From Nocardioides dokdonensis FR1436 (GTDB lineage Bacteria; Actinomycetota; Actinomycetes; Propionibacteriales; Nocardioidaceae): 64,000 nt of DNA. The stretch spans positions 3,224,001 to 3,288,000 of the forward strand of contig NZ_CP015079.1 of the NCBI RefSeq assembly GCF_001653335.1. The letters are read 5' to 3'. Numbering within the stretch: the stretch's first letter is position 1; each line of letters starts with the position of its first letter. The notes beneath the pieces are model-generated. The model did not search any database. It saw only the letters and a program-made list of their open reading frames with translations, and had not been told where the DNA came from. Shown piece after piece: positions 9,049 through 62,276 of the stretch. The translations under genes and the position numbers were made by a program.

Positions 9049-9105
9049 ATCAGCGTTCACGATCGCGCTGTGACGCCCCCCGCGTGACAAACCTGCGCGA
9101 GACTG

Positions 9106-9134: not shown

Positions 9135-9210
9135 CGCCGGAGCCCGCCTCGGGTCGCTGTGTCGACAAGGAGTCCGACCGTCGCGTGCGGGGCCGGTGGA
9201 GGAGCAGCTG

Positions 9211-17455: not shown

Positions 17456-17532
<77 letters not shown>

Positions 17533-37152: not shown

Positions 37153-37154
37153 CG

Positions 37155-38444: not shown

Positions 38445-38472
38445 CACGGCCTCCTTGATCCGTAGATGCCGG

Positions 38473-39859: not shown

Positions 39860-40024
39860 GCCATCAGGTGTCGGCCTATACCGGCGCCGTCGGATGATCG
39901 AACCGACGGAGTGGCATGGCGGAAATGTTTTTCCTCCAGCCGAGTGGTGGCGTGCGAGGGACGCGGTTGACGTCGATGGCGCGCCCATCGTCAATGGTTC
40001 AGCAGAGGCTGTATTGTTCAGTAC

Positions 40025-44867: not shown

Positions 44868-45021
44868 TTACATCAGATGTAAGTATCGTGCATCCGATGT
44901 AATCCCATGCATTAAACTGCAGGTCACGACGCCAATGGCCCGTCGGTAGTGAACCGTCGGACTGACGCTCACGTCACCGTTCACGCTTACATCTACCGTA
45001 AGAATCTTCCGTTAGATGTAA
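44868..45021. repeat. cluster of TTACATC/GATGTAA motifs at the transposon end
   Basis: TTACATC-A-GATGTAA (44868-44882) is a 15-nt palindrome. GCATCCGATGTAA (44890-44902) repeats one half. TTACATCTACCGTAA (44987-45001) and TTCCGTTAGATGTAA (45007-45021) form a 13-of-15 inverted pair around five bases. This is the arrangement expected of recombinase-binding sites around a crossover point, immediately upstream of the recombinase gene and inside the 3' end of the M23 gene. Confidence 0.7.
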
Positions 45022-46817: not shown

Positions 46818-47804
46818 TCAGGCCGGCGCGAGTGCGCGCTCTGCTTCGACCGTTCGTGCAAAGGTCGTCGTCTCTTCCAGGACCTGGTTGAACGTCGCCC
46901 AGTCCTCGGCAGACAGCTCTGTGGCGACTTGGTGGACGTCGTAGTGCTTGGACCAGCCGTCCATTTCTCGCCAGACCATCGCGAACGACTTCACGGACCG
47001 CTTGGCGTTCGCTGCAGCAGCAGCTCGCCTCGCCCGGTTCTCGCGCATCCGTCGCAGACGGTCGGCGTCGTCGCGGGCGCGCTTCGCGTCGGCCTCTGCG
47101 TCGACATCCACGTCAGGGGAATCCATGCGCCGTTCGGCGGCTTCGACCACAGCTCGAACGCGCTGATAGCCAGGATCGACAGGACCGCCGTTGCGAATCC
47201 GCTCGAGCTCATCGGCGGCCACCTGACGTACCCCAGCGGATAGGTCCCGGTCAGCCGCCACGCGTTCCATCGCGAGGATCTGGTTCAGTCGCGTGTACGA
47301 AGCGGAGCCGGTGACCATCTCGGCAGCCCGTCGTCGCCCGTCGCCATGACCCCGGGGGCACGGTGCCGCCGAATCGGCGGCACCGTCCTGCGTGTCACCG
47401 TCACCGCGGGGGCCGTTGAACTGAGTGGCCTCCTGCCGACGCGCTGCGTCCTCTTCGAGAAGGGCCACCATCTCCTTGTAGAGCTGCGCCGCTTCGTACG
47501 TCGTCAGCGGCTTGTGGGTCAGGTTGTCGTCGCGCTCGGCGAGCAAGAGAGTCAGCTCGTCGCTGAGCCCCGACCGCACCCAGACGCGGACATTGCTCCA
47601 TCCGAGCTGTCGGGCTGCTTCGAGCCGGCGGAACCCGCAGATCAGGAAGCCGTCAGTCGTGATCGTGATCGGCTGGAGGAGGCCGAAGCGTTCGAGAGAC
47701 TTCTTCAATTGATCGAGGTCGCCGGGATCGCGCCGGTGGCGCGCGCCAACTTGAATGGACTCGATGCTTCGCTGGAGCTCGGCGCGACCGCGTGACTCAG
47801 ACAT
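46818..47804 (-). CDS. ParB N-terminal domain protein of the element
   Basis: ParB/RepB-like nuclease domain at the N-terminus: HRRDPGDLDQLKKSLERFGLLQPITI and the nucleotide-binding GFRRLEAARQLGW (about 61-73), followed by a helical region (TYEAAQLYKEMVALLEE) and a charged coiled-coil-like stretch. 328 aa. The ATG at 47804 lies inside the end of the previous gene. No ParA gene is adjacent, so it may act in replication, maintenance or transcription control of the element rather than classical partition. Confidence 0.8.
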   Translation of the reverse strand: MSESRGRAELQRSIESIQVGARHRRDPGDLDQLKKSLERFGLLQPITITTDGFLICGFRRLEAARQLGWSNVRVWVRSGLSDELTLLLAERDDNLTHKPLTTYEAAQLYKEMVALLEEDAARRQEATQFNGPRGDGDTQDGAADSAAPCPRGHGDGRRRAAEMVTGSASYTRLNQILAMERVAADRDLSAGVRQVAADELERIRNGGPVDPGYQRVRAVVEAAERRMDSPDVDVDAEADAKRARDDADRLRRMRENRARRAAAAANAKRSVKSFAMVWREMDGWSKHYDVHQVATELSAEDWATFNQVLEETTTFARTVEAERALAPA

Positions 47805-48654
47805 GCGCCCGCTCCGTTGGGACGGGGGCTGCGTTCGCGATGGCGTCGGCGATGCCAGTGAGGTGGAACAGTTCGTCGTAGCGTTCACCGGTCAGGAGGC
47901 GCTTGAGAATACCCCTCCCGGCGGCCGTGTGTTCGAGACTCGGCTGATCGTGTCCGAGTACGGCATGGAGGACCGCGATCCACGAGTCCTGATCGATATC
48001 CAAGTGGCATCGGATCGACGGGTCGCGGCGCAGCGACTCGAAGGTGCTCCGCTTGTTGCCGGTTCGGATCAAGCGCGCGGCGATGCATTCCAAGGCCATC
48101 TGGGCCGCCGCTCGCGACCATCCCGAATCCACGAAGAACTCGACCGCAGTCTCGAGCGCGACCCAGGCGTTCGTCGGCTCGGCGTCTGGTTCCTCGCTGT
48201 CGGGATCGACCGCCAGCGGGTCTTCCACGTCCGACAGGTCGTCGAGTGACCAGAACGAGGGATGGAAGTCCGCGAGGTTCGTCTCGTGGTCGCTGATGCG
48301 GTCGGCGTCGTGGAAGTCAGTGACGTCGTCGGTGCGGACCTGGTCAGTGCCGCAGAGCAGTCCTTGTGCGCGCTCCTCGTAGAACATCTGAAGCGCCACG
48401 GCGTGCGTGATTACTGCCCAGGGGTCGTCGGCAATGCGAGCCGCGCGAGTGCGCATGACGTCCCACGCAGCGGCCGCGGCCTCGGCCGGATCGCGATGGT
48501 GCTTTGCTGCGAGACTGGCGTACTTCCGGGTGGTCAGGGCCATCAGTTCGGCGACGTCGGGGTCGTGCTCCCATGGGCGGTCGCCTCCGTAGTGAACGTC
48601 GACGAGGAGCAAGCGCAGGCGCTCGGGGTCGTCGAACGGGTGGATGTCGCTCAT
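47797..48654 (-). CDS. element protein of unknown function (285 aa)
   Basis: No family recognised. Acidic, mostly helical, soluble; the first 110 residues (AALEAAAAAWDVMRTRAARIADDPWAVITHAVA-like helices) resemble a DNA-binding domain only loosely, and residues about 165-215 contain ALECIAARLI. The ATG overlaps the preceding stop (ATGA). Operon with ParB and primase suggests a role in replication control. Confidence 0.72.
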   Translation of the reverse strand: MSDIHPFDDPERLRLLLVDVHYGGDRPWEHDPDVAELMALTTRKYASLAAKHHRDPAEAAAAAWDVMRTRAARIADDPWAVITHAVALQMFYEERAQGLLCGTDQVRTDDVTDFHDADRISDHETNLADFHPSFWSLDDLSDVEDPLAVDPDSEEPDAEPTNAWVALETAVEFFVDSGWSRAAAQMALECIAARLIRTGNKRSTFESLRRDPSIRCHLDIDQDSWIAVLHAVLGHDQPSLEHTAAGRGILKRLLTGERYDELFHLTGIADAIANAAPVPTERAHV

Positions 48655-49004
48655 AGTTCGACTCCTCGATCTGTGGTGGGTGTGCTCGGCAGCGGGCGCG
48701 CGATCGCGCGTCGCGTGACTCGGGCGGCGGAGCGTGGCGCACGCTGGGCTCGACGGTTCAGTTCGGCCTGCAGGTCGATGCCGCGACGGATGAACTTTGA
48801 GCCGACAGCCGTCGGAACGTCACTCGGACGGACCCAAGCGACGGACGAGGAGACAGGGTCCTGTGCGGCCGTGCTGCCGGGCGTTCGAACCGAGGGATCC
48901 GCATGCTTGGCGAGCGCACTGAGTTCGTGGTCGACCTGTTCTCGAGGTGGCTCGGGGGCGTACAGGGACCGGTCGAGGTGGCGCTCGTACGGGTCGGTGT
49001 TCAC
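48651..49004 (-). CDS. small basic element protein (117 aa)
   Basis: No family recognised. A low-complexity middle (SALAKHADPSVRTPGSTAAQDP) precedes a conserved-looking block, WVRPSDVPTAVGSKFIRRGIDLQAELNRRAQ, and an Arg-rich end. The GTG at 49004 overlaps the primase stop (GTGA), and its own stop overlaps the next start, so it is certainly part of this operon. Confidence 0.65.
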   Translation of the reverse strand: MNTDPYERHLDRSLYAPEPPREQVDHELSALAKHADPSVRTPGSTAAQDPVSSSVAWVRPSDVPTAVGSKFIRRGIDLQAELNRRAQRAPRSAARVTRRAIARPLPSTPTTDRGVEL

Positions 49005-49906
49005 AACGTCACCGCCTCAACCGCTCGGGTAGGGCCCGCTAGGTTCGCCGGCCCGAGTCTCGTCGCGATCCGGTACGCCGAACGGATGGTCGCGGCGGCC
49101 TCCCGATCGGACAGTCCGGCCTGCTGTGCGGCCACGCCCAGAACGCCAGCCGCCGTCTGGAACGGATAGTTGGACTCGGCCATGCGGCACGCTGCCCAGA
49201 ACAGGCCGCCGTTGCGATCGCCCTCTGGGCGGCTCGCGACCCAGTCCGCGAGCTTTTCCGGACGGGCACTCGCGCTGGGAAGGTCAGGTGGCGGGGCGTG
49301 TCGTCGAGGTGGATCGAGGAAGTTCCGCAGCGCTGTGCCATCGATGGAGCGAGGCTGATGGGAGGCGAGAGCGACCAGTCCGTACCCGCGCTCGCTGCCG
49401 TCGGCTACGACAACTCGCGAGGGCGGGGCGATGACGTACCCACCGTCTCCTCGGAAATCGAGGTGATGCCCAGGCAGTTGCCATGATCGGTGCTCCTGGC
49501 CGTGCCAACGCAGGAAGTAGGCGTGGAGGCCGCCCGACGGCGTTCTGACCTGCCACGCCCAGTCAGAGACGAGGCCGGCGTGTTGTGCCTTCTCGAAGGC
49601 GGCGAAGCCCGAGCCGCCAGAGTGGACGTCGACGTCTACGACATCGACGCCGGACGCAGCGCCGGTGGGGATCCCGAGGTTTGCCGTCGGCCACGCCGAC
49701 CACCATCGGGACACGGTGCCCGGTTCGGCGGTGGCGTCGTGGAATCCGTGAGTCGTCAGGGGACGCTTCTCGCCCGGTGCGCAAGGAAATACCGGGATGC
49801 CGTGAGCAGCGAGTTCAAGCGCTGCCGACGCCAGCGACGCGTCCGGCGCGGCGAGGTCGCGGACGAGCTGAGGCGACCAGCGCGTGGTGTCGGTTGAGTG
49901 GTCCAT
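49001..49906 (-). CDS. bifunctional DNA primase/polymerase (Prim-Pol)
   Basis: A 301-aa Prim-Pol-domain protein that would prime or copy element DNA after transfer. VFPCAPGEKRPLT at the start, the catalytic DVVDVDVHSGG (about 85-95) and TPSGGLHAYF are the family blocks; a helical C-terminus follows. The ATG at 49906 was chosen; a GTG three codons upstream is the alternative. First gene of the - strand operon leading to ParB and the M23 peptidase. Confidence 0.88.
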   Translation of the reverse strand: MDHSTDTTRWSPQLVRDLAAPDASLASAALELAAHGIPVFPCAPGEKRPLTTHGFHDATAEPGTVSRWWSAWPTANLGIPTGAASGVDVVDVDVHSGGSGFAAFEKAQHAGLVSDWAWQVRTPSGGLHAYFLRWHGQEHRSWQLPGHHLDFRGDGGYVIAPPSRVVVADGSERGYGLVALASHQPRSIDGTALRNFLDPPRRHAPPPDLPSASARPEKLADWVASRPEGDRNGGLFWAACRMAESNYPFQTAAGVLGVAAQQAGLSDREAAATIRSAYRIATRLGPANLAGPTRAVEAVTL

Positions 49907-50222
49907 GCCGTCCACGTTGCGCGCAGGGGGGCACCAATTATCGCCCGTCCTGAGGGCGCCCGTCCCAGGGACGGGCGCCCTCGTCAGGATGCGTTTGCGC
50001 AGGTCAGGAGGGGGCCCGTCCTAAAGTTGAAAAATCTTTCGTCAGGTTGTGATGGGGCGCCCGTTAACGGGGATGCAGCGACGGTTGACGGGCCGCAATC
50101 AACGTCACAACACGGCGAACCGAGCCAATTCGTCGGATGGCCCGGCTACCGTTGGGGCTGGAACTTGAGCTACATGGACCTCCCGACCGGGGGACGGCCG
50201 GCGCACTGAGGAGGTCATGGGG
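49907..50222. promoter_or_regulatory. divergent control region with GC-rich palindromes
   Basis: This 316-bp gap between the primase operon (-) and the gene at 50223 (+) contains a 29-nt palindrome (49953-49981, AGGGCGCCCGTCCC around a single A) and a 12-nt palindrome CCCGTTAACGGG (50060-50071). Promoters for both directions should lie here. The same 13-mer recurs as an inverted pair in the relaxase gene. Confidence 0.6.
49953..49981. repeat. 29-nt palindrome built of two GGGACGGGCGCCC motifs
   Basis: Arms AGGGCGCCCGTCCC and GGGACGGGCGCCCT are perfectly complementary around a central A. Exact 13-mer copies occur again at 63312-63324 and, inverted, at 63356-63368. Confidence 0.85.
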
Positions 50223-51134: not shown

Positions 51135-54100
51135 CTAGGACGCCGGTCGTCTCGGCGACTTCGGCGTCGGCGAGATCCTGCGCTGTCCCCAGCCGTTGTT
51201 CTTCACGATCTCCTTGGTGCGCGTGGGCAGATCGACAGGAGGTTCGTAGTCGTCGCGCCGATCGAAGATGTCCTCGCGCAGCGTCTCTTCGGCCGCACCA
51301 ACATGACCCTGGGCTTCCAGCACCTTGGCGAGATCCAGCCGACTGACTTCGTCGTACGGCGCGGCCGTGCATGCGATCTCCGCTGACTCCCGGGCGAGGC
51401 TGAGATCATTGCGCTGGAGCGCGTCGAGAACAACAATGTGTGCGGTGTCGACGATTGCGCACGGGATCAGGTCCTGCAGGCGCTCCCCGTCGAGCAGCCA
51501 GCTCCAGCCCTGGTCGCGCAACTGATCGAACGGCTTGCCGCTGACGAGGTGCAGCGCCTGGACGAGATCGGCGATCCCGTCTGCGCCGCGGGCTTGCCCC
51601 CGCGCACGAAGGCGCCGGAAGAGGTCGACATCGACGAGCAGGTCGTCGACCTGATAGCCGTGCCATTCCGTCTCCGGGTGGTCGCCTTGCTTCGGGATGT
51701 GCCACTCGCCGGTGCGCGGATCCTTCCCGAGCCACTCGCGCAGGTGGCCTACGTCCGTTCGGGCGCGAGGTTGGCCGATGTGGAACGCCTCGGCGATCGT
51801 TCGTGACATCACACCCTCGGGGTGGAGAGCCACGAAGGCGAGCAGTTCTGAGTAGTACGGCCGGCGCTTGACGATCTGCTCGACCAGCTTGCCGTGGGCC
51901 GCGACCCGAACCGGGCCGAGGAGCGTGAGCCGGGGAAGCCGTGAGTCATCGTCGAACCATGCCGCGACGTCCTCGTCCAGCGTTGGGTCGAGGTCAGCGA
52001 GAGCCTCAGCAGCTTCATCGATAGCGTTGGGCGCAAGCTCGTTGATGTCGTCCTCCGTCGCCGCCGCTACGTCCACGTAGGCATCGGTTGGCTCTGGGAG
52101 CAGTGACGTGGAGCCGGTCGCGCCGACGAGGCGCGGACGTGTGAACTCGGTGCGCAGTGCTCCGGCCTGATCGGTGACCGACCGCCAGCCATCGGCGGCT
52201 TGCGCGAAGTTCGGGATGTCGGTGGTCGGCGTCACTCGCGTGACGTCGACGATGGCGGCGCAGAGCGTTGCTTCCTCGGCCGTCAGCCCAGCAGCGGCAA
52301 CGTCGATCCCGATGGTCGGCGTCGTGAGGCGTCCCGCCGGGGTGAACTCGAAGACAGCTGTATCCTCCGGCGGCGCTGCGGCCACGGTGACGACTGCAAC
52401 CCCGAATCGCCCTATCGACTGTGCCCGGGCGTCATCGATGACAGCGGCCAGGTCGACGTTGGTGGCGATGACCACCTGCCACGGATCGGGCTCGTCGCCC
52501 TGCCGTCGGCTCGCAGTCTGGATCTCGGCCGTCACCGAGCGGACGGCAGCGTCGTCGGTGTCGTGAGTACGCAGCCGCAACGTGTCCAGGTCGCCTAGTT
52601 CCTCGCCGATGCCGAAGGTATCGGTCTGCACGAGTACCGACCATGGGTTCAGGGCCAACTCGGCGGCAGCATGCCGCGCGAACGCTAGCGCATGATCGCC
52701 GTCGCCAGTCAGAGCGATTGAGCCCAGCGGCTCGAGGTTCACCAACCACAAGACTCCGCCGTCGTCACGACCGACGCTGACGAGCATGGGGTACGGAGAC
52801 AGCACGTCGTCGTCCACGACAACTGTGCGGAGCTCGACCTGCCAGCGCTGCTCCTCGCCCTTCCACGGAGCCGATAGCTCCACGCGTTCGGCGAAGTGGA
52901 ACGTCGCGACCCCCCGAGATAGCGAGACGGATGTCAGGGCCGGGAGTGGCGTGTCCATGTCGCGCGACTGAGCAGCGATGTTGTTGAGCGCGGCGTCGAG
53001 CCCTTCGATGTCGTAGGCCGATCGGTCGCCGTAAGCAGTCGCGGTTTTGTCGACCTTGATCAGCTCGGGCGGATTGGGGGCAAGGGTCTGACCCGGCCGG
53101 CGGTAACGGAGTTGGGTGCGGCGATGGGCGCGCACCGCCAGGAGAACGGCACCGGCGAGGAGCCCGCCACCGGCCACTCCCGGCAGCAGCCAGGCGGGCG
53201 GGCCCTCTGCCGCCGGGTCGTCCGCATTGCCCACGGGTGTGGCCAGCTCGGCGGCGGGTTGTGTCGGCTCAGCCTGAGGTGTCGGGACTTCAACCTCGGG
53301 CTGCTCAGCAAGCGGCGGCTCTGTGGTTGGAGGCGGCGCGACCGTGGCCTCATCGTCATGAGGCTGAGCCGGGTCGGCCGTTTGCGGAATCGTCAGCTCC
53401 CAGCCGGGGCGAATCAGGTCGGGATCCTCCAAATGCGCGCCGTCGGGCTGCGCGGTAGCGCGCGATGCCTCGAAGATCTCCGGATACCGAGCGCCGTCGC
53501 CGAGCTCCTGCTCAGCGATCTCCGACAGGGTGTCGCCGGGCTGAACCACGACGGTCTCGGATTCCCTCGACTCGACGATGGGCACGCGAAGGACAGTTCC
53601 TGGCGTGATGAAGTCGGGGCGCCCGTTGAGGACGTCTCTGTTGAGGTCGACGAGTTCGGTGAAGCGAGCGCCGTCCCCGAACAGCCGCTCGGCGATCCGC
53701 CACAGACTGTCGCCCCGGGCGACCGTGTACGGGCGTGTCTGGGGGTTCTCCGAGTTCAAGTTCGTTTCGTCAGACGCGGGCGGGGCTGACGCTGCCGGGA
53801 CCGCGTCGGCCCCCATCCAATTAGGCGACTCAGGCGCCACAGCGGCGACGGCGTGCGCAGGCGGACTAGGCAGAGCGGCCACGATGGTCGGACCGGCCAC
53901 GAAGAGCAGGGCGGCAGCGCCGACCAGCTGGGCTGCGAACTGTTGGGGCATCGCGAGTCCGGGGAGCGCTGGCACCGGTACACGGCGTACCTCCGAGACG
54001 GCTGCCAACAGGACCGGTCCCGTCACAACCGCCCAGGCGCCCCAGCCCACGGTGGCGAAGGCGGCAAACGCGAGACTGCCGTCATCTGGTCGGGCGAGCA

Positions 54101-54236
54101 TTCGCCGGAGCTCGCCGGGATCGGGATCCCACGGTGCGAAGCCGATGGCGATGAGGACGGCCGGGAACGCCACGACAAGCCCGAGCAGGGCAAGGCAGGC
54201 GAACAGCCCGCGGATCCGTTGGCCGAGTGTCGTCAT
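51135..54236 (-). CDS. LysM and BTAD domain membrane protein of the Tad locus
   Basis: 1033 aa. Membrane segments at about 10-32, 58-82 and 98-122; a LysM module at about 168-218 (YTVARGDSLWRIAERLFGDG) and a second LysM-like module at about 229-290 (VVVQPGDTLSEIAEQELGDG); another membrane helix near 347-367; then a cytosolic region and, at the C-terminus (about 810-1010), a winged-helix plus bacterial transcriptional activator domain (TLLGPVRVAAHGK..., SWLLDGERLQDLI). Proteins of this design accompany actinobacterial Tad pili and could couple the cell wall state to pilus assembly; that role is inferred. It overlaps the preceding TadG-like gene by 4 nt. Confidence 0.82.
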   Translation of the reverse strand: MTTLGQRIRGLFACLALLGLVVAFPAVLIAIGFAPWDPDPGELRRMLARPDDGSLAFAAFATVGWGAWAVVTGPVLLAAVSEVRRVPVPALPGLAMPQQFAAQLVGAAALLFVAGPTIVAALPSPPAHAVAAVAPESPNWMGADAVPAASAPPASDETNLNSENPQTRPYTVARGDSLWRIAERLFGDGARFTELVDLNRDVLNGRPDFITPGTVLRVPIVESRESETVVVQPGDTLSEIAEQELGDGARYPEIFEASRATAQPDGAHLEDPDLIRPGWELTIPQTADPAQPHDDEATVAPPPTTEPPLAEQPEVEVPTPQAEPTQPAAELATPVGNADDPAAEGPPAWLLPGVAGGGLLAGAVLLAVRAHRRTQLRYRRPGQTLAPNPPELIKVDKTATAYGDRSAYDIEGLDAALNNIAAQSRDMDTPLPALTSVSLSRGVATFHFAERVELSAPWKGEEQRWQVELRTVVVDDDVLSPYPMLVSVGRDDGGVLWLVNLEPLGSIALTGDGDHALAFARHAAAELALNPWSVLVQTDTFGIGEELGDLDTLRLRTHDTDDAAVRSVTAEIQTASRRQGDEPDPWQVVIATNVDLAAVIDDARAQSIGRFGVAVVTVAAAPPEDTAVFEFTPAGRLTTPTIGIDVAAAGLTAEEATLCAAIVDVTRVTPTTDIPNFAQAADGWRSVTDQAGALRTEFTRPRLVGATGSTSLLPEPTDAYVDVAAATEDDINELAPNAIDEAAEALADLDPTLDEDVAAWFDDDSRLPRLTLLGPVRVAAHGKLVEQIVKRRPYYSELLAFVALHPEGVMSRTIAEAFHIGQPRARTDVGHLREWLGKDPRTGEWHIPKQGDHPETEWHGYQVDDLLVDVDLFRRLRARGQARGADGIADLVQALHLVSGKPFDQLRDQGWSWLLDGERLQDLIPCAIVDTAHIVVLDALQRNDLSLARESAEIACTAAPYDEVSRLDLAKVLEAQGHVGAAEETLREDIFDRRDDYEPPVDLPTRTKEIVKNNGWGQRRISPTPKSPRRPAS

Positions 54237-54658
54237 TGCTCCGTGCCTCCAATGGTTCGTACGACCCGAGCGGATGCCTCGCCGGTGACGGTCAGGTTCG
54301 AGAAGCCGATGGCCCCGAGGAACTGGGGGTCGTAGTGGTCGGTCACTGTCACGGTGACCGTGTCGCCGCCGGTGATCTCGACCGTCCCTTCGACGTGAGC
54401 AGCCGCGAGGTACTCCTTGGCGGCGGTCCGTGCAGCGGCCAGATCAACGTCAACCGAGCGGCCCTCGATCGCGGCCGGCGCCTGAATCCTCTGCCCTCCG
54501 GCGCGGGCGGCCTGGGCCGCGATGTCGTGGGCTCGCTGCTGAGCATGCACTTGACCACCGAGGTCGACGGCGAGACCGACAAGCATGATCATCACGAAAC
54601 TTGCGGTGACCAGCCAGACGCTGATCGAGCCGCGCTCGTCACGCACGCGGCGGGTCAT
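54233..54658 (-). CDS. TadG-like minor pseudopilin
   Basis: A 141-aa protein beginning RDERGSISVWLVTASFVMIMLVGLAVDLGGQVHAQQRAHDIA, the TadG/TadE-type N-terminus with one membrane helix and an extracellular strand-rich domain. The residue five after the cleavage-site Gly is Trp rather than Glu. Overlaps both neighbours by 4 nt, so it is tightly coupled in the Tad operon. Confidence 0.82.
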   Translation of the reverse strand: MTRRVRDERGSISVWLVTASFVMIMLVGLAVDLGGQVHAQQRAHDIAAQAARAGGQRIQAPAAIEGRSVDVDLAAARTAAKEYLAAAHVEGTVEITGGDTVTVTVTDHYDPQFLGAIGFSNLTVTGEASARVVRTIGGTEQ

Positions 54659-55080
54659 GACCGCTCCCTGAACGAGTCAAGCGGCGAGGTAACCGTGGCC
54701 GTCACGGTCCGCGATCCGGGGACGCCGGGAACGGCCAAATCTCCGAGGTTGAGACGACAAGAGACGGTGACCTGGACGGACCCGGGGGTTCCGACGGGCT
54801 TCGCAAAGTCGGATGAGTCGATCGAGACCTGGACGGTGATGCAATCGATGTCTTGGTTCGCCAGGCTGGCCCGCGCTGCTTCCTCGGCGCCGGAGCGTGC
54901 CTCCTGGCTGGTTCGTGCGATCGAGGCAGTTCGCGCACCGTCGGCGGCGGCGGATTCGACCGCTCCGTGAGTCATCGCAGTGCGCCCGCCGAAGATGATC
55001 AGGCCGACGAACAGAGCGAAGGCAGGCACGCCAATCACTGCCTCGACGGCGGCAGAACCTCGCTCGTCCCGGCCGCTCAC
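54655..55080 (-). CDS. tadE: TadE-like pseudopilin 1
   Basis: A 141-aa pseudopilin: DERGSAAVEAVIGVPAFALFVGLIIFGGR has the G-x4-E processing signature with Glu at +5 and one hydrophobic helix. The extracellular part contains two Cys (DIDCITV, VSCRLNL) that may form a disulfide. Coupled to both neighbours. Confidence 0.86.
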   Translation of the reverse strand: MSGRDERGSAAVEAVIGVPAFALFVGLIIFGGRTAMTHGAVESAAADGARTASIARTSQEARSGAEEAARASLANQDIDCITVQVSIDSSDFAKPVGTPGSVQVTVSCRLNLGDLAVPGVPGSRTVTATVTSPLDSFRERS

Positions 55081-55484
55081 GGCGCCGTGATCCTCTCAGT
55101 CGGAAGCGAAGCCGACTGCTCGATTCGCGGCGTCCAGCCCGGAATGACGCTCAGACTGTTCCCTATCACCGTCACGGTGACTGTCGTAGCCGTCCGATCA
55201 GCCGTCACGCTAACGCCCGACAAGACGTCGTCGCCTCCAGCGTCGGAGACGAACGCGTCGGCGGCAGCGACGCCGTCCGACTGCGTTCCAGACTCCGCAC
55301 TTGCCGCACGAGCACCCTCCTGCGCGGCGGCAATCGCCACGCTTCGGGCGTGGTAGAACAACGCGGCCTGCATCCCCAGGAACATCACCGCGAACAACGC
55401 AGGCAGCAGGATCACGAGCTGGATCGACACCGACCCGTGCTCGTCCCTTCGCCTACTTGATGTTGCCGGCCTGTGCTGTGACAT
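55077..55484 (-). CDS. tadE: TadE-like pseudopilin 2
   Basis: A 135-aa pseudopilin with DEHGSVSIQLVILLPALFAVMFLGMQAALFYHARSVAIAAAQEGARAA. The usual +5 Glu is Gln. The ATG at 55484 overlaps the end of flp by 32 nt; if translation starts there, the cytosolic leader is longer than needed, so a later start is possible. Confidence 0.84.
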   Translation of the reverse strand: MSQHRPATSSRRRDEHGSVSIQLVILLPALFAVMFLGMQAALFYHARSVAIAAAQEGARAASAESGTQSDGVAAADAFVSDAGGDDVLSGVSVTADRTATTVTVTVIGNSLSVIPGWTPRIEQSASLPTERITAP

Positions 55485-55641
55485 AGGCCTTCACCGCTGC
55501 CACCACTACGCCGACGATGGCGATCACGGCGACAGCCCAGAGCACGTGCTCCGTGGTCACTGAGCCGCGCTCGGTACGCGCACGCATCCGTGCGTCGAAC
55601 CCGAGGGCGACTCCGAGTAGGAGTCCGATCAGTCGGTTCAT
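55453..55641 (-). CDS. flp: Flp-type major pilin
   Basis: A 62-aa prepilin: a long basic leader (MRARTERG), then the G/SVTTE processing site with Glu at +5, then a single hydrophobic helix (HVLWAVAVIAIVGVVVAAVKAYV) and a very short tail, exactly the Flp design. A strong GGAAGGAAAC ribosome site precedes the ATG at 55641, suggesting high expression. It is the probable structural subunit of the pilus fibre. Confidence 0.85.
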   Translation of the reverse strand: MNRLIGLLLGVALGFDARMRARTERGSVTTEHVLWAVAVIAIVGVVVAAVKAYVTAQAGNIK

Positions 55642-55685
55642 CTCGTTTCCTTCCTGTCCGCGGTCCTTCCCCGTCGGGCTGGCTA

Positions 55686-56591
55686 TTAGGTGTTGCTGAA
55701 CATCCGGAGCAGGGACGGTGCGACGAGCAGCGCCATGAACACGACGCCGAGCAGGGATCCGGGGATGGTCATCCGCTCGCCGACGGCATTGGCCTCGGCG
55801 ACCTCGTCGTTGAGCATTGCCGTTCGCATGGCGGCCGACCGGGCACGCAAGTGGCTGTACACGCTGGAGCCTTCCTCTCCGGAGAGCCGCATGATGTCTG
55901 CGAAGTCGTCGAGTTCCGGGAGGCCGAGCTCGTCCGCAAGGGTGTGGAGCGCGTCCCACGGAGGCTGACCCGACCACCGGGATCGGGTCAGTTCCTCCGA
56001 CAGTCGGGTGAACACCCACGAGTCGCCAACAAGTGCCGCGGCCTCCATCGCTTGCCGGACGCCCGAACCGTTGTTGCGCTCCAGAGCCACGAGATCGATG
56101 TAGGCGCCCAAGGCACGCGCGAACTCGATTCGAGCCTTCTTGGCGTCGTCGATCACGTTGTAGTTGGGCACGAAGAACATCACTGCGGCGAGGCCGACCG
56201 ACGCTGCGCCAGACAGGGTGATCGGGAGCCCCAATCCGAGAAGGTTGAAGAACAGGGACAGCAGGGGCGGAATCAGTAGGCCGAGGAACGCGAAGACGAT
56301 CTTGTCGCCGTAGAACTGCGCCACCGAGATGCGGAGCACCGCAAGCTCGCGAGTTGGCGTGCGCACCCAGAGGCCTGCAGGGAGCGACTTGATGGCCCAC
56401 AGCCCAATCCGTTCCTTGCCCTGCGGTGCGACGTTCGATGGCCCCGCGGGCCGGCGAGGGTTCCCGGGCGCGAGCCGACTGAGTGCGTCGGCGAGGTCCG
56501 GCTCTGTCGGCATGATGCGGATGACGAGAAGTGCCAGTCCGAACGAGACGAGAGCGCCGCTGGCGAGGGCTGTCAGGAGACCGGGAGTCAT
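55686..56591 (-). CDS. tadC: Tad pilus platform protein TadC
   Basis: A 301-aa inner-membrane protein of the type II secretion system F family. Membrane segments near 7-25, 103-123, 128-147 and 275-297 flank the cytosolic T2SSF domain (GAYIDLVALERNNGSGVRQAMEAAA; DDFADIMRLSGEEGSSVYSHLR). Works with TadB as the platform for pilus assembly. The start overlaps tadB by 4 nt. Confidence 0.9.
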   Translation of the reverse strand: MTPGLLTALASGALVSFGLALLVIRIMPTEPDLADALSRLAPGNPRRPAGPSNVAPQGKERIGLWAIKSLPAGLWVRTPTRELAVLRISVAQFYGDKIVFAFLGLLIPPLLSLFFNLLGLGLPITLSGAASVGLAAVMFFVPNYNVIDDAKKARIEFARALGAYIDLVALERNNGSGVRQAMEAAALVGDSWVFTRLSEELTRSRWSGQPPWDALHTLADELGLPELDDFADIMRLSGEEGSSVYSHLRARSAAMRTAMLNDEVAEANAVGERMTIPGSLLGVVFMALLVAPSLLRMFSNT

Positions 56592-57445
56592 GCCGCATCA
56601 CCCGTCCGAGCGATCCGAGCTCCGAGGAATCTGGGCAACTCCCGGCCGATCGCCATCCGTTTCATCCACACGAGCAAACTGATGTACGCCGCAAGAAGTC
56701 CGACGAGAATCACCTGGCCAAACGGGCTTCGGTACGGCTCAACGTACGTCCCGGATACTGCGAGCACGACGAGGACGCTGGCGCTGATGATCGTCACCCA
56801 CCGCGCTGTCGCACGGGGCTTGGCTCGATCGGCCTCGACCTGCCGCCGAGCGCGGACGTCAGCTGCCACCGACTCCGCGAGGCCGTCGAGCACGCTGGCC
56901 AGGCCCGCCCCGCGACGTCGAGCGCCGAGGATCAGGTTGGCGGCAACGAGGTCCCCGGTGGAGTCGTCCAGTTCGTCGGCGAAAGCGCGGAGAGCCTGTT
57001 CTGTCGACCAACGCGCCCGGAGCCGTGCCACGAGCCGTGTCACCTCGGGCGCGATTGCAGCGGGAGTGGATCGCAGCGTTGCGACCAACGCCTGCTCAAG
57101 TCCGACACCGACCGTGAGGACGCCCGCGAGCGACCGGGTCCATTCCTCCATCGCTTCGAGTCGCCCGATCCGCGTCTGAGCTGGGCCAGACGACAGCAGA
57201 GCGGGAAGGCCGACGAATGCGATCGGGACGAGCAAGAGCGCCATCGCCCAGCCCGTCACCATGACAGCGATCAGTCCGGTGATGGCTCCTGCGGCCAGAA
57301 GCCATTGGGTCTGCCTCGGTAGCGGCTTCAAGTGGCGTTTGCGTGGCGGTCGTTGCACGACTTCTGACGGCGTCAGGCCGACGACGAGTGCGATCACTCC
57401 GCCGACGATCAACGCACCTGCGAGAGCCGGGACGAGGACGATCAT
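56588..57445 (-). CDS. tadB: Tad pilus platform protein TadB
   Basis: A 285-aa T2SSF-domain membrane protein: segments near 3-23, 49-68, 71-88, 217-237 and 245-262, with the cytosolic motif WTRSLAGVLTVGVGLEQALVATLRSTP and ARRRGAGLASVLDGLAESV. The ATG at 57445 overlaps the tadA stop (ATGA). Confidence 0.9.
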   Translation of the reverse strand: MIVLVPALAGALIVGGVIALVVGLTPSEVVQRPPRKRHLKPLPRQTQWLLAAGAITGLIAVMVTGWAMALLLVPIAFVGLPALLSSGPAQTRIGRLEAMEEWTRSLAGVLTVGVGLEQALVATLRSTPAAIAPEVTRLVARLRARWSTEQALRAFADELDDSTGDLVAANLILGARRRGAGLASVLDGLAESVAADVRARRQVEADRAKPRATARWVTIISASVLVVLAVSGTYVEPYRSPFGQVILVGLLAAYISLLVWMKRMAIGRELPRFLGARIARTGDAA

Positions 57446-58911
57446 GACGTGCGTCCTTGCTGGAGCAGGTAGCCAGAGAGGTCGAAGCCGTGCACGGTGA
57501 GCGCCCGGTAGGCGTCGGGCAGAACATTCGGGGCGGCCACTCCGTTGGCGTCTGGCGAGAAGACGTGAGTCGTGGCGTAGCCGGTCTCCTTCTCGCCAGG
57601 ATCGAGAGCGATGATCTCGGCCACCCGTCGCTGACGTGTCGGTCCGGCCGGACCAGTGGTCGTCTGGAGGTCGAGGTGGACGATGATGTCGACGGTCGCC
57701 GCGAGCTTGCTGGTGGCGAGTGCCTGAGTGACGTGAGATCCCGCCTCCATGGCGCATGTCACGAGCTTGCGGACAGCTGCGACGGCATCTGAGGCGTGTG
57801 TTGTCGAAATGGAGCCGGTCCCGGACTCCATCGCCTTGATCATCGCCCAGATCTCCTTGCCCCGAACCTCGCCGACGATCTGGCGCGCGAGGTTGAACCG
57901 GAAGGAGTCGACGAGGGCTTCGTCGAGCGTGAACTCGCCCGCCTGCCGTCCGTCGGCACCGCGCTCGCCGGAGCCCGGCCTGGCTTCCCAGGGGTGCACG
58001 ATTCGGTGCCGATCGGGCAGCTCGTGGAGGTGGAGCTCGTACTCGGTCTCGAACGTGCCGATCGCCTCAAGCGGGTCGATCTCGGCGCACAGAGCGCGCA
58101 CGAGAGTGGTCTTGCCTGCTCCCTGACACCCCGAGACGACGATGCTCCGACGTGCCTTCACTGCGGCCGACAGGAAGGAAGCGGCCACCGGCGTCAGCGT
58201 CTGACGATCGACGAGGTCCTCGAGCCTGACTTCCATGAGTCGGTGGCGGCGGATGACGACGGAGGGTCGAGGTGTGACCCAGGCCGCAGCTGCGAGCCGG
58301 GATCCGCCGTCCAGCCGCAAGTGGAGGCGAGGCTGTGCCTCCGAGAAGCCGCGTGCGTTCACCTCGCTGCGAGAGGCGAGGAACACCAGGAAGTCGATCA
58401 GGTCCTCGTCGGAGTCCGCGACCGCGGGACCTTCGAGCAGCGAACCGTCGATCAGTTCGAGCAGTACGCGGTCGTGGCCGGTGATGATGATGTTCTCGAT
58501 GCGGTCGTCGTCGACGAGCGGTTGGAGGCGACCGAGTCGGAAGAGGGAGTCGAACACCGCGTGGGCCAGGCGGGACTGTTCAGCCGCTGACATCGACGCG
58601 GAGCCGGCATTCACCCGGTCGACCATGGCCGTGTCGATGAGCTCCAGGACGATGGCACGTCCGAGTTCCTGCTGGCCGGTCTTGTCGAGGCGACCGCGGT
58701 CAGCCGCGACTGCCTGACTGAGTTGGTCTGAGGCCTTCGCGCGCAGGGAAGCGACCACCTGCCAATCGACGCCCTTGGCGGCTTGCGGGGGTGCGACTGG
58801 CATCCGCAACACGGACCCGACGTGGCGCGGCGTTGCAGCATCGACGTCGGCTGCCGGCTGGGCGAACAGCGGCAGGGACTTTGGATCGTCCACGAACCGC
58901 CCGGAAGTCAT
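57442..58911 (-). CDS. tadA: Tad pilus assembly ATPase TadA (CpaF)
   Basis: A 489-aa secretion ATPase that powers pilin polymerisation. N-terminal domain includes ENIIITGHDRVLLEL; Walker A is GCQGAGKTTLV, followed by the acidic TFETEYELHL (Asp-box equivalent), and Walker B/His region in RQIVGEVRGKEIWAMIKAMESGTGSISTTHA. The ATG at 58911 overlaps the tadZ stop by 4 nt. Confidence 0.93.
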   Translation of the reverse strand: MTSGRFVDDPKSLPLFAQPAADVDAATPRHVGSVLRMPVAPPQAAKGVDWQVVASLRAKASDQLSQAVAADRGRLDKTGQQELGRAIVLELIDTAMVDRVNAGSASMSAAEQSRLAHAVFDSLFRLGRLQPLVDDDRIENIIITGHDRVLLELIDGSLLEGPAVADSDEDLIDFLVFLASRSEVNARGFSEAQPRLHLRLDGGSRLAAAAWVTPRPSVVIRRHRLMEVRLEDLVDRQTLTPVAASFLSAAVKARRSIVVSGCQGAGKTTLVRALCAEIDPLEAIGTFETEYELHLHELPDRHRIVHPWEARPGSGERGADGRQAGEFTLDEALVDSFRFNLARQIVGEVRGKEIWAMIKAMESGTGSISTTHASDAVAAVRKLVTCAMEAGSHVTQALATSKLAATVDIIVHLDLQTTTGPAGPTRQRRVAEIIALDPGEKETGYATTHVFSPDANGVAAPNVLPDAYRALTVHGFDLSGYLLQQGRTS

Positions 58912-59675
58912 GAGTTCACCTGCGCGAGGAGTGCCGTGCGCCGTCGCTGGATGACTCCATGGATCGCCTCGATGCTGGCCCGAATGCTTCTCACGTACGG
59001 GGCCGTGTCGAAGTGCTTGGGCTGCTGAGATCCGCGGTGAAAGACCGCAGAGCCCTCGGCGTCGTCGGCGATGCTGGCAACCACAGGCTGACCCACGACC
59101 GAGCTCACTTCGGTGGCGCCATACGGCTTGCCTTCGCCGATCAGGAGGATGCCTGCCTGCCGCAGATCGCCTGCTGGTCGAGCAATCGCGTCTGCCCACG
59201 TCCGCGCTGCGGAGAGCGCCGGGAGGTTGGTGCGAGTCACCAACAGAGTCAGGTCCGCTGTGTCCATGAGTGCCTCCGGGGAGCCCGACAGTCCAAGCCG
59301 ACCGGCGTCGATGACGACGTCCTGCCCGTTCTCCTCGAGCTGGCCCAGGGTCTCGGCTAGCGGTGTCCACACATCACGTAGCGCGGCCGCCTGGGTGCGG
59401 GAGCGCGTGCCGGCCAGCAGGCTGACGTGCGTGTCGGGAATCAGTCCGATTGCCTCCCTGAGCGCGTCGGATGGCGGTAGCGCCGAGAGTGCGAGTTCGA
59501 CGATGCCCACGTCGTACTCGCGGGTTCCTCGGAAGTAGCCGGCCAGGATGGCGGAACCGCCCGTCGGGTCGGCCTCGACCAATACCACCGGACGCGGCCA
59601 GAGGAACGCCAGGGCCACCGCGGTGGTGGTCACGCCGGGCGAGCCGGACGCGGACGTGAGAGCGATGACAGCCAT
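58908..59675 (-). CDS. tadZ: TadZ/CpaE-like MinD-family ATPase
   Basis: A 255-aa P-loop protein of the SIMIBI/MinD type: SASGSPGVTTTAVALAFLWPR has a degenerate Walker A (G-S-P-G-V-T-T without the usual Lys), then LVEADPTGGSAILAGYF and DVVIDAGRLG. In Tad systems TadZ localises the machine at a pole. The missing P-loop Lys suggests weak or no ATP hydrolysis. Coupled to the next gene by TGATG. Confidence 0.8.
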   Translation of the reverse strand: MAVIALTSASGSPGVTTTAVALAFLWPRPVVLVEADPTGGSAILAGYFRGTREYDVGIVELALSALPPSDALREAIGLIPDTHVSLLAGTRSRTQAAALRDVWTPLAETLGQLEENGQDVVIDAGRLGLSGSPEALMDTADLTLLVTRTNLPALSAARTWADAIARPAGDLRQAGILLIGEGKPYGATEVSSVVGQPVVASIADDAEGSAVFHRGSQQPKHFDTAPYVRSIRASIEAIHGVIQRRRTALLAQVNS

Positions 59676-60346
59676 CAGCGGTCCCGGGAGTCCAGAACCA
59701 GAGCCACACGGCCTGTGGCGACCCGAGCCGCCAGCACTGCCGCGTCCTCGTGGCGAACGAGCAGGTCAACGACGGTCTCGCCCGTCTCCTCGTTGACATG
59801 CACGGCGACTACGTCGGCCTCGCTGTACTCCGGAGTACCGCCTGGTGCATCGCCGTCCTGGGCTGGTGTGACAACGACCCTGACGTGATCGCCCGAGTGC
59901 AACGCCGACCCGGGCGCCTGGGCCGATGTGAGTGCAACACCCACGACAGACTGGCCAGTCGGAGGCAGAGATGCGTTCGAGAAAGAGCCGGGAGTCAGCG
60001 CCGATCCGCTCGCAATATCGAAGGTCGCGCGTTGGCCGACCACAGACTCGAACCTGTCCGCTGACACCGGGGTGAGGGCCGGGTCGGAACTGAGGCGCAC
60101 CGTCGTCAGATCGTTCTCGTCGATGACTGAGCCGCGCTCGATGTCCGTCCGTGCAACGAGGACTTCCTGACTGTTGGTCGTCGCCGACCAGGTCCAGCCT
60201 GCGACCACCGCACCCAGACAGATGGCGACGATCGCGATCGCGACCATCCCGGGCTTCCGTCGAAGTTTTGGAGGCGGGGCGATCCCGCCGTCAGTCGCTC
60301 GCGGTTCGCGGCCGATGGTCTTGTCGTCCCGAATGGATGTCGTCAT
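59675..60346 (-). CDS. cpaB: CpaB/RcpC-like SAF domain protein
   Basis: A 223-aa protein with one membrane helix (about 34-55) followed by an extracellular SAF domain, VLVARTDIERGSVIDENDLTTVRL, as in CpaB/RcpC of Tad pili. It is the likely periplasmic or wall-spanning part of the machine. The ATG at 60346 follows the preceding gene by 34 nt. Confidence 0.85.
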   Translation of the reverse strand: MTTSIRDDKTIGREPRATDGGIAPPPKLRRKPGMVAIAIVAICLGAVVAGWTWSATTNSQEVLVARTDIERGSVIDENDLTTVRLSSDPALTPVSADRFESVVGQRATFDIASGSALTPGSFSNASLPPTGQSVVGVALTSAQAPGSALHSGDHVRVVVTPAQDGDAPGGTPEYSEADVVAVHVNEETGETVVDLLVRHEDAAVLAARVATGRVALVLDSRDR

Positions 60347-60380
60347 GGGTCCCTCGCTTGTCCTCCCCGCGGCAGGTCGC

Positions 60381-61340
60381 TCAGTTCACGAGCACCTGCG
60401 CCTCTCCGATGGAGATCTCGACAGCACGGGTCAGGCCGTTCAGTCGGATCGTTCCGGTCTGCCCGGCGCCGGCCCAGGTGATGACCCAGTCCGAGGTGGC
60501 CGTGACGGTGTACTTGTCGCCGGGCTTGCCGGCGCTCGACTTCTGATAGGTGTGGCCACACGTCGGTGACGACCGGTCGTCGTACTCCGCCTTGTACGGC
60601 GTGCCCGGCCCGTTGCAGATGACCTCGGTTCCGTCTCCCATGACCCAGGTGACGCGATGGAGACGAGCTGTGGCGGTGACGGTGATGCCGCCAGCCGACG
60701 CCGAGGCGTTGATCGGTCCAACCGTGTGGCTGTCCGGGTTGGCCGCCCACATCCACACGGGCATGCCGACGATGCCGATGCTGCCGGGTCCGGGCTTCGG
60801 GGCGATGCCGATGTTGATCGCCGACAGGTTCATCTGGTCGATCGCGAGAGTCGCGACCTCACGCGGGGTGGGTCCTGCGCCTGAGTTCGGCGGAGGGTCG
60901 GCGGACCAGATGTAGATGTCGATGTCGGTCTGCGGTTGGTAGCACCTATACACGGCGCCATCGCCCGGCTCGTGTCCTTGCCACGCTGGATCGCCCGCAG
61001 GCGGCTGTGGATCGACCAACTGGATGTAGCAGTTGTAGCTGTTGGACCAGTAGCCGTACTCGCTCGAACACGGCACCGGCCCCGGCGGCGGCTTGTGAAT
61101 GTTCTGAGCCGTCCCGTCCCAGTAGCAGGCCTGCCCGGACCCTGTGTCCTTCGGCCCGTCGTCTCCCGGATCGCCCGGCTGGCCGGGATTCCCGGGAACC
61201 TCGATCCAGATCAGGCAGACGCCAGTTTCCGGGTCAGTGACCTGGCAGACCGTGTCGGCGGCTGCTGGCGACCCAACGCTGAGGAGGAAGCTCGCGACGG
61301 CGAGCGGCAGGAGGACGGCATCGGTGATCAGGCGTCGCAT
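60381..61340 (-). CDS. secreted protein of unknown function in the Tad operon (319 aa)
   Basis: A signal peptide (about 1-29, ending SPAAAD) leads to a Pro/Gly- and Cys-rich extracellular region (about 30-150, GNPGQPGDPGDDGP and several Cys) and a strand-rich C-terminal domain (TVTATARLHRVTWVMGDGTEVIC), possibly PKD/immunoglobulin-like. Position before cpaB and surface location suggest an adhesin or pilus-associated protein, an inference. The ATG at 61340 lies inside the end of the upstream lipoprotein gene. Confidence 0.72.
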   Translation of the reverse strand: MRRLITDAVLLPLAVASFLLSVGSPAAADTVCQVTDPETGVCLIWIEVPGNPGQPGDPGDDGPKDTGSGQACYWDGTAQNIHKPPPGPVPCSSEYGYWSNSYNCYIQLVDPQPPAGDPAWQGHEPGDGAVYRCYQPQTDIDIYIWSADPPPNSGAGPTPREVATLAIDQMNLSAINIGIAPKPGPGSIGIVGMPVWMWAANPDSHTVGPINASASAGGITVTATARLHRVTWVMGDGTEVICNGPGTPYKAEYDDRSSPTCGHTYQKSSAGKPGDKYTVTATSDWVITWAGAGQTGTIRLNGLTRAVEISIGEAQVLVN

Positions 61341-61942
61341 GGCGTTCGCTCGATGTCCTGGCTGGAGGCAACACGCCACGCGCCATCGGGATCGGAGTCC
61401 CACTGATAGTTCGCGACCGAGTACCGGATCCATCCCGTGTCCGGTCGTTCCGGAGTTACGACGGACTTGCCGTCCGCGTCGAGTACGTCGACGCCGCTGA
61501 CGTCGAAGCACACATCGATCTGCACGGTCGGTACCTTGCCGGCCTGCGGATCTGAGTTGTCGAGGTTGACCGACTGGACCTCAAGCTCGACGACCTTCGT
61601 CTCGCCGATCTGGTGCAGGCCTTGCTCGCGCTCACGCTTGAAGAGCGTCTGCTGCGTCGTCAACTCGGTGCTGATCGCCACTGACTTGAGCTTCGACAGT
61701 GGCTGGGTCGGGTCACGCCGAAGCTGGTTCCGGATCGCGTAGTAGTCGTTCACCGTCGCAGTCGCTGCCGCTGTCGCGGACTCCGAGGGGGACGTGGGCG
61801 TCGGGCTGCTGGAGGAAGGGCTCGACGCCGGTGGATTGGAACGCGGATCTGTCGGATCGCCATCGTCATCGGCACACGACGTCCCCGCGACCAGCAGCAG
61901 TACCGCGGTCGCGAGTGAGAGTGCTCCTCGTGAGTTCGTCAT
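61328..61942 (-). CDS. putative lipoprotein (204 aa)
   Basis: N-terminus TAVLLLVAGTSCADDDGD resembles a lipobox with Cys at about 23, followed by a Ser/Pro/Thr linker and a folded domain (about 60-200) with an NTF2-like feel (VNDYYAIRNQLRRDP...). First gene of the - strand Tad operon, divergent from the relaxase. Function unknown; probably anchored outside the membrane. Confidence 0.7.
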   Translation of the reverse strand: MTNSRGALSLATAVLLLVAGTSCADDDGDPTDPRSNPPASSPSSSSPTPTSPSESATAAATATVNDYYAIRNQLRRDPTQPLSKLKSVAISTELTTQQTLFKREREQGLHQIGETKVVELEVQSVNLDNSDPQAGKVPTVQIDVCFDVSGVDVLDADGKSVVTPERPDTGWIRYSVANYQWDSDPDGAWRVASSQDIERTPCDA

Positions 61943-62276
61943 GGCCGAGTCCCTGCGAAACTCCCCGAGATTCCCCCGAGGAAGTTCGAACGGCGTCCGG
62001 CCAGCGGTCCGACGCGAACGCCGATCTGTCCTATTGAGTCACGACAAATGGGCCCTACGCAACAGTTCGTCATCCGAAGCTCCTTCCGAGTCGACTCTTG
62101 CCGATCACTCCACAGGTGTCGAAGCCCGCCCGTCCTGCCCTGCCGCCGGCCTCGATTTCGTCCTACACGTCTTGCAGAACGAGGGGTAAGGCCGGCGAAT
62201 GGCCTGTGGATAGACGCCTGCGACGGTAGGGCTGTGGACCTTCCGCGACACCTCCTGGACGAGGAGGTGAGGCGCA
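61943..62276. other. divergent intergenic region before the relaxase (candidate oriT/promoters)
   Basis: 334 bp separate the Tad operon from the relaxase gene. MOBF relaxases are often encoded next to their oriT, so the nick site could lie here. I see only short imperfect dyads (GCGTC...GACGC around 61993-62015; GGCC flanking GGCGAAT at 62190-62204) and repeated TGTGGA, none conclusive. Confidence 0.4.

Follow-up and report, generated by a model that had tools for sequence, protein, structure and literature searches.

How does a monoderm donor make and hold contact with the cell that receives its DNA? To our knowledge this is poorly known, and the question is raised by a locus of Nocardioides dokdonensis FR1436 in which an operon for a Tad (type IVc) pilus stands back to back with the gene of a MOBF relaxase. 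The DNA analysed, called the window throughout, is a stretch of 64,000 nucleotides from the complete 4.38-Mb genome (contig NZ_CP015079.1, positions 3,224,001 to 3,288,000; G000:C1:3224001-3288000 in our labels, where a G number is a genome, G000 being the window's own, a C number a contig and an L number a fetched region). Judged by sequence, the Tad block belongs as a fixed module to a family of integrative conjugative elements (ICEs), with a MOBF relaxase and a type IV secretion system (T4SS), in the Nocardioidaceae and their relatives. We further propose, with a probability of about 0.58, that the element-encoded pilus would serve on the donor as the mating contact, by analogy with the IncI thin pilus.

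A Tad pilus operon beside a relaxase gene

The operon consists of 12 minus-strand genes at 51135-61942, whose neighbours overlap or lie no more than about 45 bp apart. They are given here from the first gene onwards, in window positions; window-type loci are those with a TadA identity of at least 73%.

61328-61942, minus strand: lipoprotein-like protein, the operon's first gene; in 32/32 window-type loci; no Pfam match
60381-61340, minus strand: secreted PKD-like protein, 319 aa, a candidate surface or tip protein; in 32/32 window-type loci
59675-60346, minus strand: CpaB/RcpC-like SAF protein (Pfam SAF 1.5e-10, above cut-off)
58908-59675, minus strand: TadZ-like protein (NCBIfam CpaE_hom_Actino, E 4.2e-11, weak at 42.6 bits against a cut-off of 154; no Pfam match)
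57442-58911, minus strand: TadA ATPase (Pfam T2SSE PF00437 8.7e-19, above cut-off; NCBIfam TadA-family model 1.2e-33, below its cut-off)
56588-57445, minus strand: TadB platform protein (Pfam T2SSF 8.8e-12, above cut-off)
55686-56591, minus strand: TadC platform protein (Pfam T2SSF 6.3e-6, above cut-off)
55453-55641, minus strand: Flp, candidate major pilin, 62 aa (from translation; processing-type motif G/SVTTE)
55077-55484, minus strand: TadE pseudopilin 1 (Pfam TadE 4.8e-10, above cut-off)
54655-55080, minus strand: TadE pseudopilin 2 (Pfam TadE 4e-8, above cut-off)
54233-54658, minus strand: TadG-like pseudopilin (Pfam Tad 9.9e-9 and TadE 7.6e-6, above cut-offs)
51135-54236, minus strand: LysM / pseudo-FtsK / SARP membrane protein ('LysM-BTAD'), 1033 aa (Pfam LysM above cut-off)

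An earlier sequence-only reading had named the Tad genes at these places and on this strand, and translation and Pfam bear it out, with TadZ the weak case. Its count of ten genes was too low, as the block has 12 once the secreted protein (60381-61340) and the lipoprotein-like protein (61328-61942) are added. With TadA, TadB and TadC, a Flp-type motif and TadE/TadG all present, this is, as far as genes alone can tell, the gene set of a Tad pilus. The candidate pilin has no Pfam match above cut-off (only DUF4244, sub-threshold at 0.0058), and its Glu at +5 is kept in 32/32 homologues. For the C-terminal half of the secreted protein, the top four Foldseek matches are PKD domains (best E 1.8e-3, none below 0.001), and Pfam PKD_4 is matched by 7 of 29 family members, the window's own being without a match.

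Linkage and co-inheritance with the transfer genes

TadA was searched for in an order-wide sample of 391 genomes, and the MOBF relaxase and the T4SS protein SCO6880 in 65 genomes hand-picked from these, 49 with a TadA of at least 49% identity and 16 others. The TadA loci scored are those of at least 49% identity, among the matches listed, in the 49 chosen genomes; at least 41 window-type loci were listed, of which 34 were tested and 7 lie in genomes not chosen. MOBF matches below about 215 bits, among those listed, were left out (one at 165 bits was kept), as were 13 SCO6880 matches below 337 bits.

Within 70 kb on the same contig, SCO6880 lies near 54 of the 62 TadA loci, MOBF near 52, and both near 49. 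As a control, 42 T2SSE ATPases scoring 130 bits or higher were taken from 20 of the 65 genomes, and SCO6880 was within 70 kb of 1 of them; five weaker T2SSE matches (84-113 bits), which fall outside this control, do adjoin SCO6880 and by sequence resemble Tad loci of a more distant kind. Counted by genome, SCO6880 is found above cut-off in 46/49 TadA-positive genomes versus 2/16 of the hand-picked others. Where the contig allows a test, in 33 window-type loci, 32 have a TrwC domain 3365-3484 bp away from tadA and on the other strand; the remaining two of the 34 tested loci are that of G339, on a 3.8-kb contig, and that of G388 C34, where no relaxase was found. All twelve operon genes stand in the same order in 32/32 window-type loci fetched as regions (L060-L091).

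A second, named collection overlaps the first sample in part: a divergent MOBF gene is present in 39 of 43 loci with a TadA of at least 72% and enough upstream sequence, and, where both flanks are available, the other 11 operon genes are kept in 39 of 40, the exception being without the lipoprotein gene only. In the 49-72% TadA class of this collection MOBF is adjacent in 0/24 loci, and the pairing of Tad and relaxase therefore marks the window-type element family. The Microbacterium plasmid pYJNG has the same arrangement, with mobF annotated and a relaxase 64.5% identical. Window-type Tad blocks also occur in metagenome-assembled genomes labelled Acidimicrobiales (L157), Mycobacterium (L192) and Thermoleophilaceae (L199), which would reflect either wide transfer or binning errors.

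Might the block be a resident chromosomal Tad locus that adjoins the ICE by chance? The window's genome does hold resident Tad-like loci elsewhere; these differ, however, with TadA proteins 29-33% identical to the window's, and block and relaxase are found together again in many genomes and on pYJNG. We hold chance adjacency to be scarcely credible. Absence from the element's relatives, or identity with a resident locus, was what the sequence-only reading had named as telling against it, and on checking neither occurred. A Tad-like locus of this genome at 2340689-2341462 (L012) has a stop codon within its TadA match and is possibly a pseudogene.

Trees were built for TadA, MOBF and SCO6880 from 29 of the 34 elements, those with every gene complete on the available sequence (G234b, with a partial relaxase, was dropped, and the gene of the LysM protein was left out). 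Patristic distances correlate at r 0.919 for TadA-MOBF, 0.791 for TadA-SCO6880 and 0.856 for MOBF-SCO6880, the best of 499 permutations being below 0.36 for each gene pair; the corresponding quartet agreements are 0.75, 0.71 and 0.77. G175 and G359 each carry two elements, a and b, which are separated into different clades by each of the three trees; host descent therefore does not explain the agreement. The agreement is imperfect, and some recombination is likely. Because of its fixed spacing to the relaxase and the congruent trees, we conclude from the sequences that the Tad operon travels together with the transfer genes. The sequence-only reading had proposed as much, and constant order and spacing in 32/33 loci, with congruent TadA and relaxase trees, uphold it.

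The element around the operon

The other features of the element, in window positions, are as follows.

17456-17532, plus strand: tRNA-Pro(GGG) gene (ARAGORN), likely integration site
17634-18815 and 19727-20923: two tyrosine recombinases/integrases, adjoining tRNA-Pro
24161-25924, minus strand: VirD4/TraG coupling protein (Pfam TraG-D_C 6.3e-26 and T4SS-DNA_transf 2.1e-19, above cut-offs)
27980-29491, minus strand: VirB4-type ATPase domain protein (NCBIfam conju_CD1110 3.9e-17, to the profile's second half, and Pfam AAA_10 4.6e-4, both below cut-off)
35686-37890, minus strand: SCO6880 family T4SS protein (NCBIfam 6.7e-137)
37155-38447, minus strand: SCO6881/TrbL (VirB6-like) protein (NCBIfam 5.5e-29 and Pfam TrbL 1.3e-4, both below cut-off)
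39572-40267, minus strand: DUF6112 protein (Pfam 5.1e-27)
44974-46119, minus strand: M23 peptidase (Pfam Peptidase_M23 6.1e-28), with a putative VirB1-like role
46818-47888, minus strand: ParB-like protein (Pfam ParB_N 5.8e-6, slightly above cut-off)
49001-49915, minus strand: bifunctional primase/polymerase (Pfam Prim-Pol 8e-33)
61943-62276: gap between relaxase and Tad operon, with a conserved motif at about 62165; oriT/promoter candidate
62277-65759, plus strand: MOBF relaxase-helicase (Pfam TrwC 4e-86); the window stops at 64000

Rightward from tRNA-Pro, the order is thus VirD4/TraG, VirB4-type ATPase, SCO6880, SCO6881/TrbL, DUF6112, M23, ParB, Prim-Pol, the Tad operon and the divergent MOBF relaxase, with Prim-Pol and ParB on one side of the pilus genes and the relaxase on the other, as the sequence-only reading had it. 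The VirB4-like profile NF045971 (752 positions) is split, positions 188-363 falling on the SCO6880 protein and 375-729 on the separate ATPase protein, and VirB4 of this T4SS seems, by these matches, to be two separately encoded proteins. A large RCC1-repeat protein is encoded within the T4SS gene region (33936-35576).

At the tRNA-Pro gene there is a step in G+C, from 0.71-0.74 down to about 0.66, and the gene to its left is present in 40/40 genus genomes. No second full copy of the 46 nt at this end was found, with up to 3 mismatches allowed; partial repeats lie at 19279 (20 nt) and 106813 (about 15 nt). The latter was considered as the right end and rejected, as the gene to its right is present in 4/40 genus genomes, the window's own among them, and hence is not core. 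Between 17456 and 19300 lie the tRNA-Pro gene, an integrase and the 20-nt repeat at 19279, an arrangement that points to either a tandem integration or a small remnant on the left side of the element. Directly past the relaxase follows a BREX type I set (BrxA, BrxB, BrxC, PglX, PglZ, BrxL; L007:5803-19861, about 67803-81861 in window numbering) and after it a GajB-like helicase (L008:2170-3435). By gene content these form a defence island, on the conjugative element or beside it.

The gap between relaxase and Tad operon measures 275-386 bp across loci. A motif, ACAC-N5..8-GCA-N1..3-CGAGG, occurs in 31/33 gap regions, 60-134 bp ahead of the relaxase start, and was read off the same alignment in which it was counted, so its discovery is not independent. 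Over both strands of 32 whole loci, which total 657,060 bases and do not include the window's region, it has 31 matches, of which 30 are those in the gaps; the window region holds a second match, inside the relaxase gene. Among four Tad-less elements, described below, it lies about 115 bp ahead of the relaxase in one and 6.8 kb off in another, two being without it, and in a second type of Tad element it is 3.5 kb off. A perfect 9-nt inverted repeat flanks the window's motif and was dropped as support for an origin of transfer (oriT), as repeats in 31 regions average 5.77 versus 5.77 in shuffles. We treat the motif as an oriT candidate, which no conserved inverted repeat supports.

That second type of element is in the window's own genome, with a Tad block at 18-29.5 kb (genome positions) whose TadA is 50% identical. 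Its relaxase, TraG, VirB4-type, SCO6880 and M23 genes lie within about 55 kb spanning the numbering origin, and its secreted-protein and lipoprotein genes stand at the opposite end of the Tad block. Near it, at G000 4360116-4368362 and 1-11252, TraG, VirB4-type, M23 and SCO6880 genes occur in two copies, the SCO6880 gene at 4.367 Mb being in pieces.

A prepilin peptidase probably from elsewhere

No prepilin peptidase (TadV) was found on the element, and the A24 peptidases of two plasmid relatives gave no match in the 122 kb around it (best E 0.32). The genome's only A24 peptidase (PF01478) lies outside the element, at 3,136,902, beside genes that are presumably aroE and aroC, which they resemble. 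At least one A24 peptidase is present in 58/58 genomes searched, in agreement with the sequence-only reading, which saw no peptidase gene and looked to an enzyme encoded off the element. In some relatives such a gene does lie near Tad or T4SS genes (pXCEL01 and pLMV7, by annotation; G322, with two; G264, G110 and G229). The lack of its own TadV is no bar to Tad membership, since the peptidase of a Tad system may be encoded apart or borrowed from other systems (PMC6668835).

A LysM protein as candidate sensor

The 1033-aa protein encoded last in the operon has N-terminal hydrophobic segments and LysM domains, followed by another hydrophobic segment (348-369) and then many arginines. Its earlier name, LysM-BTAD, holds by Pfam for LysM, found in 24/24 family members; by sequence BTAD is weak, with 1/24 at E<=0.01, and it is the fold that favours it. 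In the predicted structure (mean pLDDT 78.5), the C-terminal region at about 760-1019 folds like AfsR (Z 12.2, rmsd 3.9 over 224 residues) and EmbR (Z 12.0), so that the model supports a SARP/BTAD region that the sequence hardly does. Region 349-668 folds like FtsK/EccC/TcpA motors (Z up to 11.6; Foldseek E 1.5e-5). The P-loop GxxxxGK[ST] is absent in 23/23 aligned family members (L063 and L064, which have no start codon, were left out of this 23-row fold alignment), and therefore we claim no ATPase activity for the FtsK-like region.

A LysM and BTAD protein within a tad locus has already been tabulated for a Cutibacterium acnes plasmid (PMC3666418); the FtsK-like middle part and the reading as a membrane sensor are our own proposal. 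In its boldest form, this would be a dedicated monoderm Tad mating pilus with its own sensor, in which the LysM/pseudo-FtsK/SARP protein would read peptidoglycan or mating contact and activate the oriT/promoter gap from the membrane, co-switching pilus and relaxase. We regard this extension as doubtful.

Weighing a role in mating

What might the Tad operon do for the element? In the scheme that we favour, TadA, TadB/TadC and TadZ would polymerise Flp through the wall, the two TadE and the TadG pseudopilins, perhaps plus the secreted PKD-like protein, would form the pilus tip, and the resident A24 peptidase would mature the pilins. The LysM-SARP protein may sense the state of the cell wall and in response activate transcription, for which the gap shared by relaxase and Tad operon is a possible site. 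The pilus would then join donor and recipient, and the monoderm T4SS would move the DNA. We infer from the genes that the pilus is made and touches recipient cells, and likewise the identity of its peptidase and the means of its activation.

Elements without Tad are informative here. That Tad always accompanies this T4SS was considered and rejected, as 28 of 82 SCO6880 loci have no listed TadA within 70 kb; 5 of these 28 adjoin a more distant TadA-like match (G375:2435406, G337:2077828, G273:C1:1027364, G333:C17 and G175:C11). Among scored candidates only, no T2SSE match is listed within 70 kb of the SCO6880 genes G243:3885, G229:1896273 and G351:510380, or on contigs G100 C15 and G388 C47. 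The four Tad-less elements that were opened (G351, G388 C47, G243 and G100) share SCO6880, DUF6112, M23, ParB and ArdC with the window, and three of the four have Prim-Pol. Five Tad-less elements placed in the trees form one clade (support 0.64 for MOBF and 1.0 for SCO6880), which in the unrooted SCO6880 tree adjoins a Tad-positive element. These trees argue for a single gain or loss of Tad among the compared elements, and loss is mildly favoured by the presence of Tad in the second element type, which is the outgroup in the MOBF tree.

The same comparison bears on the idea that TadA is the VirB11-type motor of the T4SS itself, with the pilins secondary. TadA does belong to the VirB11/CpaF superfamily (VirB11 model 1.6e-25, below cut-off), and it is the genome's only T2SSE-type ATPase inside the element as far as mapped. 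Yet pilin and platform genes stay with TadA in 32/32 window-type loci and 39/40 of the named collection, and no TadA-like ATPase is listed near the Tad-less T4SS relatives, and we think such a motor very improbable.

Several observations weigh against a part for the Tad pilus in mating. Linkage is no proof of it, as host adhesion or DNA uptake could be kept too. In the four opened elements, the related T4SS and relaxase are kept while other genes fill the place of Tad, which by sequence makes Tad dispensable for that backbone, if these elements transfer. As this sister clade combines a related T4SS backbone and relaxase with the lack of Tad, the pilus is unlikely to be essential for transfer across the class. 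In the 49-72% TadA class of the named collection, Tad does not adjoin the relaxase. There are lesions in relatives, such as a stop within TadA of G199, a truncated LysM-SARP protein in L089 and additional DNA within the operons of L065 and L091, and inverted repeats at the oriT candidate do not exceed chance in the 31 regions compared with shuffles. As to plasmids, where TadA relatives are found in number among actinobacteria, a match to the VirB4-type profile AAA_10 is present on 14 of 16 Tad plasmids hand-picked among the first 36 entries, above cut-off on 13, a count in favour of the mating reading; against it, pCHL and pA-N39 have none, and the profile also matches 10/14 control genomes (3 above cut-off).

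A rival reading is that the pilus is a host-benefit trait, for surface adhesion, biofilm or niche colonisation, that is stably carried by the ICE and unused in mating. Many described Tad pili act in attachment (PMC10934763), the C. acnes authors discuss host colonisation (PMC5696575), and the Tad-less sister elements show the backbone persisting without Tad. Against this stands the place of the block: the genes from Prim-Pol/ArdC to the relaxase vary among the four Tad-less elements, whereas Tad is fixed there in 32/33 loci with a congruent tree, and distantly related plasmids repeatedly combine a Tad block with a VirB4-type match (14/16). We consider a pure host-benefit role unlikely, if deserving of attention, and favour the mating contact.

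Relation to known systems

Tad has been found to be the filament type commonest on plasmids (Denise et al., PMC6668835), and pAL1, one of the 16 Tad plasmids above, has been termed conjugative (PMC3534580). The C. acnes linear plasmids pIMPLE-HL096PA1, p09-9 and p15.1.R1 have, as here, SAF, TadZ, TadA, two TadB/C, an ORF of no known function, three TadE and LysM/BTAD genes in the same order (PMC3666418). These putatively conjugative plasmids carry VirB4- and TcpC-like genes along with Tad, and the authors call the link between Flp pili and conjugation unclear (PMC5696575). The statement that Tad pili are normally chromosomal, made in the sequence-only reading, was too strong in view of these plasmids and of the AAA_10 matches on 14/16 Tad plasmids. 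The C. acnes plasmid differs from our locus in being linear and in having an FtsK/TraB-like translocase and sigma/anti-sigma genes upstream, and the word relaxase is absent from the available text of that paper (PMC5696575). The element described here, unlike these plasmids, is integrated and has its MOBF relaxase directly divergent.

The pili of IncI and PAPI-1 belong to other type IV classes and to diderm hosts, and neither is Tad or monoderm. The IncI (R64) thin pilus and the PAPI-1 type IV pilus are likewise type IV filaments beside a T4SS and aid or allow conjugation (PMC12857230); the accessible text of that T4SS review, dated 2025, has zero mentions of Tad or Flp. T4SS-type actinobacterial ICEs share with ours an integrase, a VirD4-type coupling protein, VirB4 and a MOBF relaxase (Ghinet et al. 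2011, PMC3218068); in the portions of that paper available, TadA is unmentioned and 'pilus' occurs once, about Gram-negatives. Chromosomal Tad/Flp loci, such as those of Micrococcus luteus, Bifidobacterium and Myxococcus (Kil), are the same machine in other roles and are not described, in the texts at hand, as part of a conjugative element. As Kil shows, the functions open to a Tad pilus with TadE/F/G-type tips include contact between bacterial cells (PMC12075869). Flp-dependent transformation in the actinobacterium M. luteus (PMC4322843; cited in PMC5696575) would suit a Tad machine for DNA uptake, or one used as a secretion apparatus, which we judge improbable for this element, as it is not evident why a competence trait should adjoin a relaxase.

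In open-access PMC literature, as far as its text was available, we found no published Tad-MOBF ICE family. Tad has already been published from putatively conjugative plasmids of C. acnes; what appears new is an ICE family coupled to MOBF, the co-inheritance within it and the architecture of the LysM/pseudo-FtsK/SARP protein. With Tad, relaxase and T4SS inherited together, by sequence, across an ICE family, and with a natural Tad-less sister clade as a control, the question of mating contact in monoderm donors becomes directly testable, and the LysM-SARP protein is a plausible candidate for its regulator.

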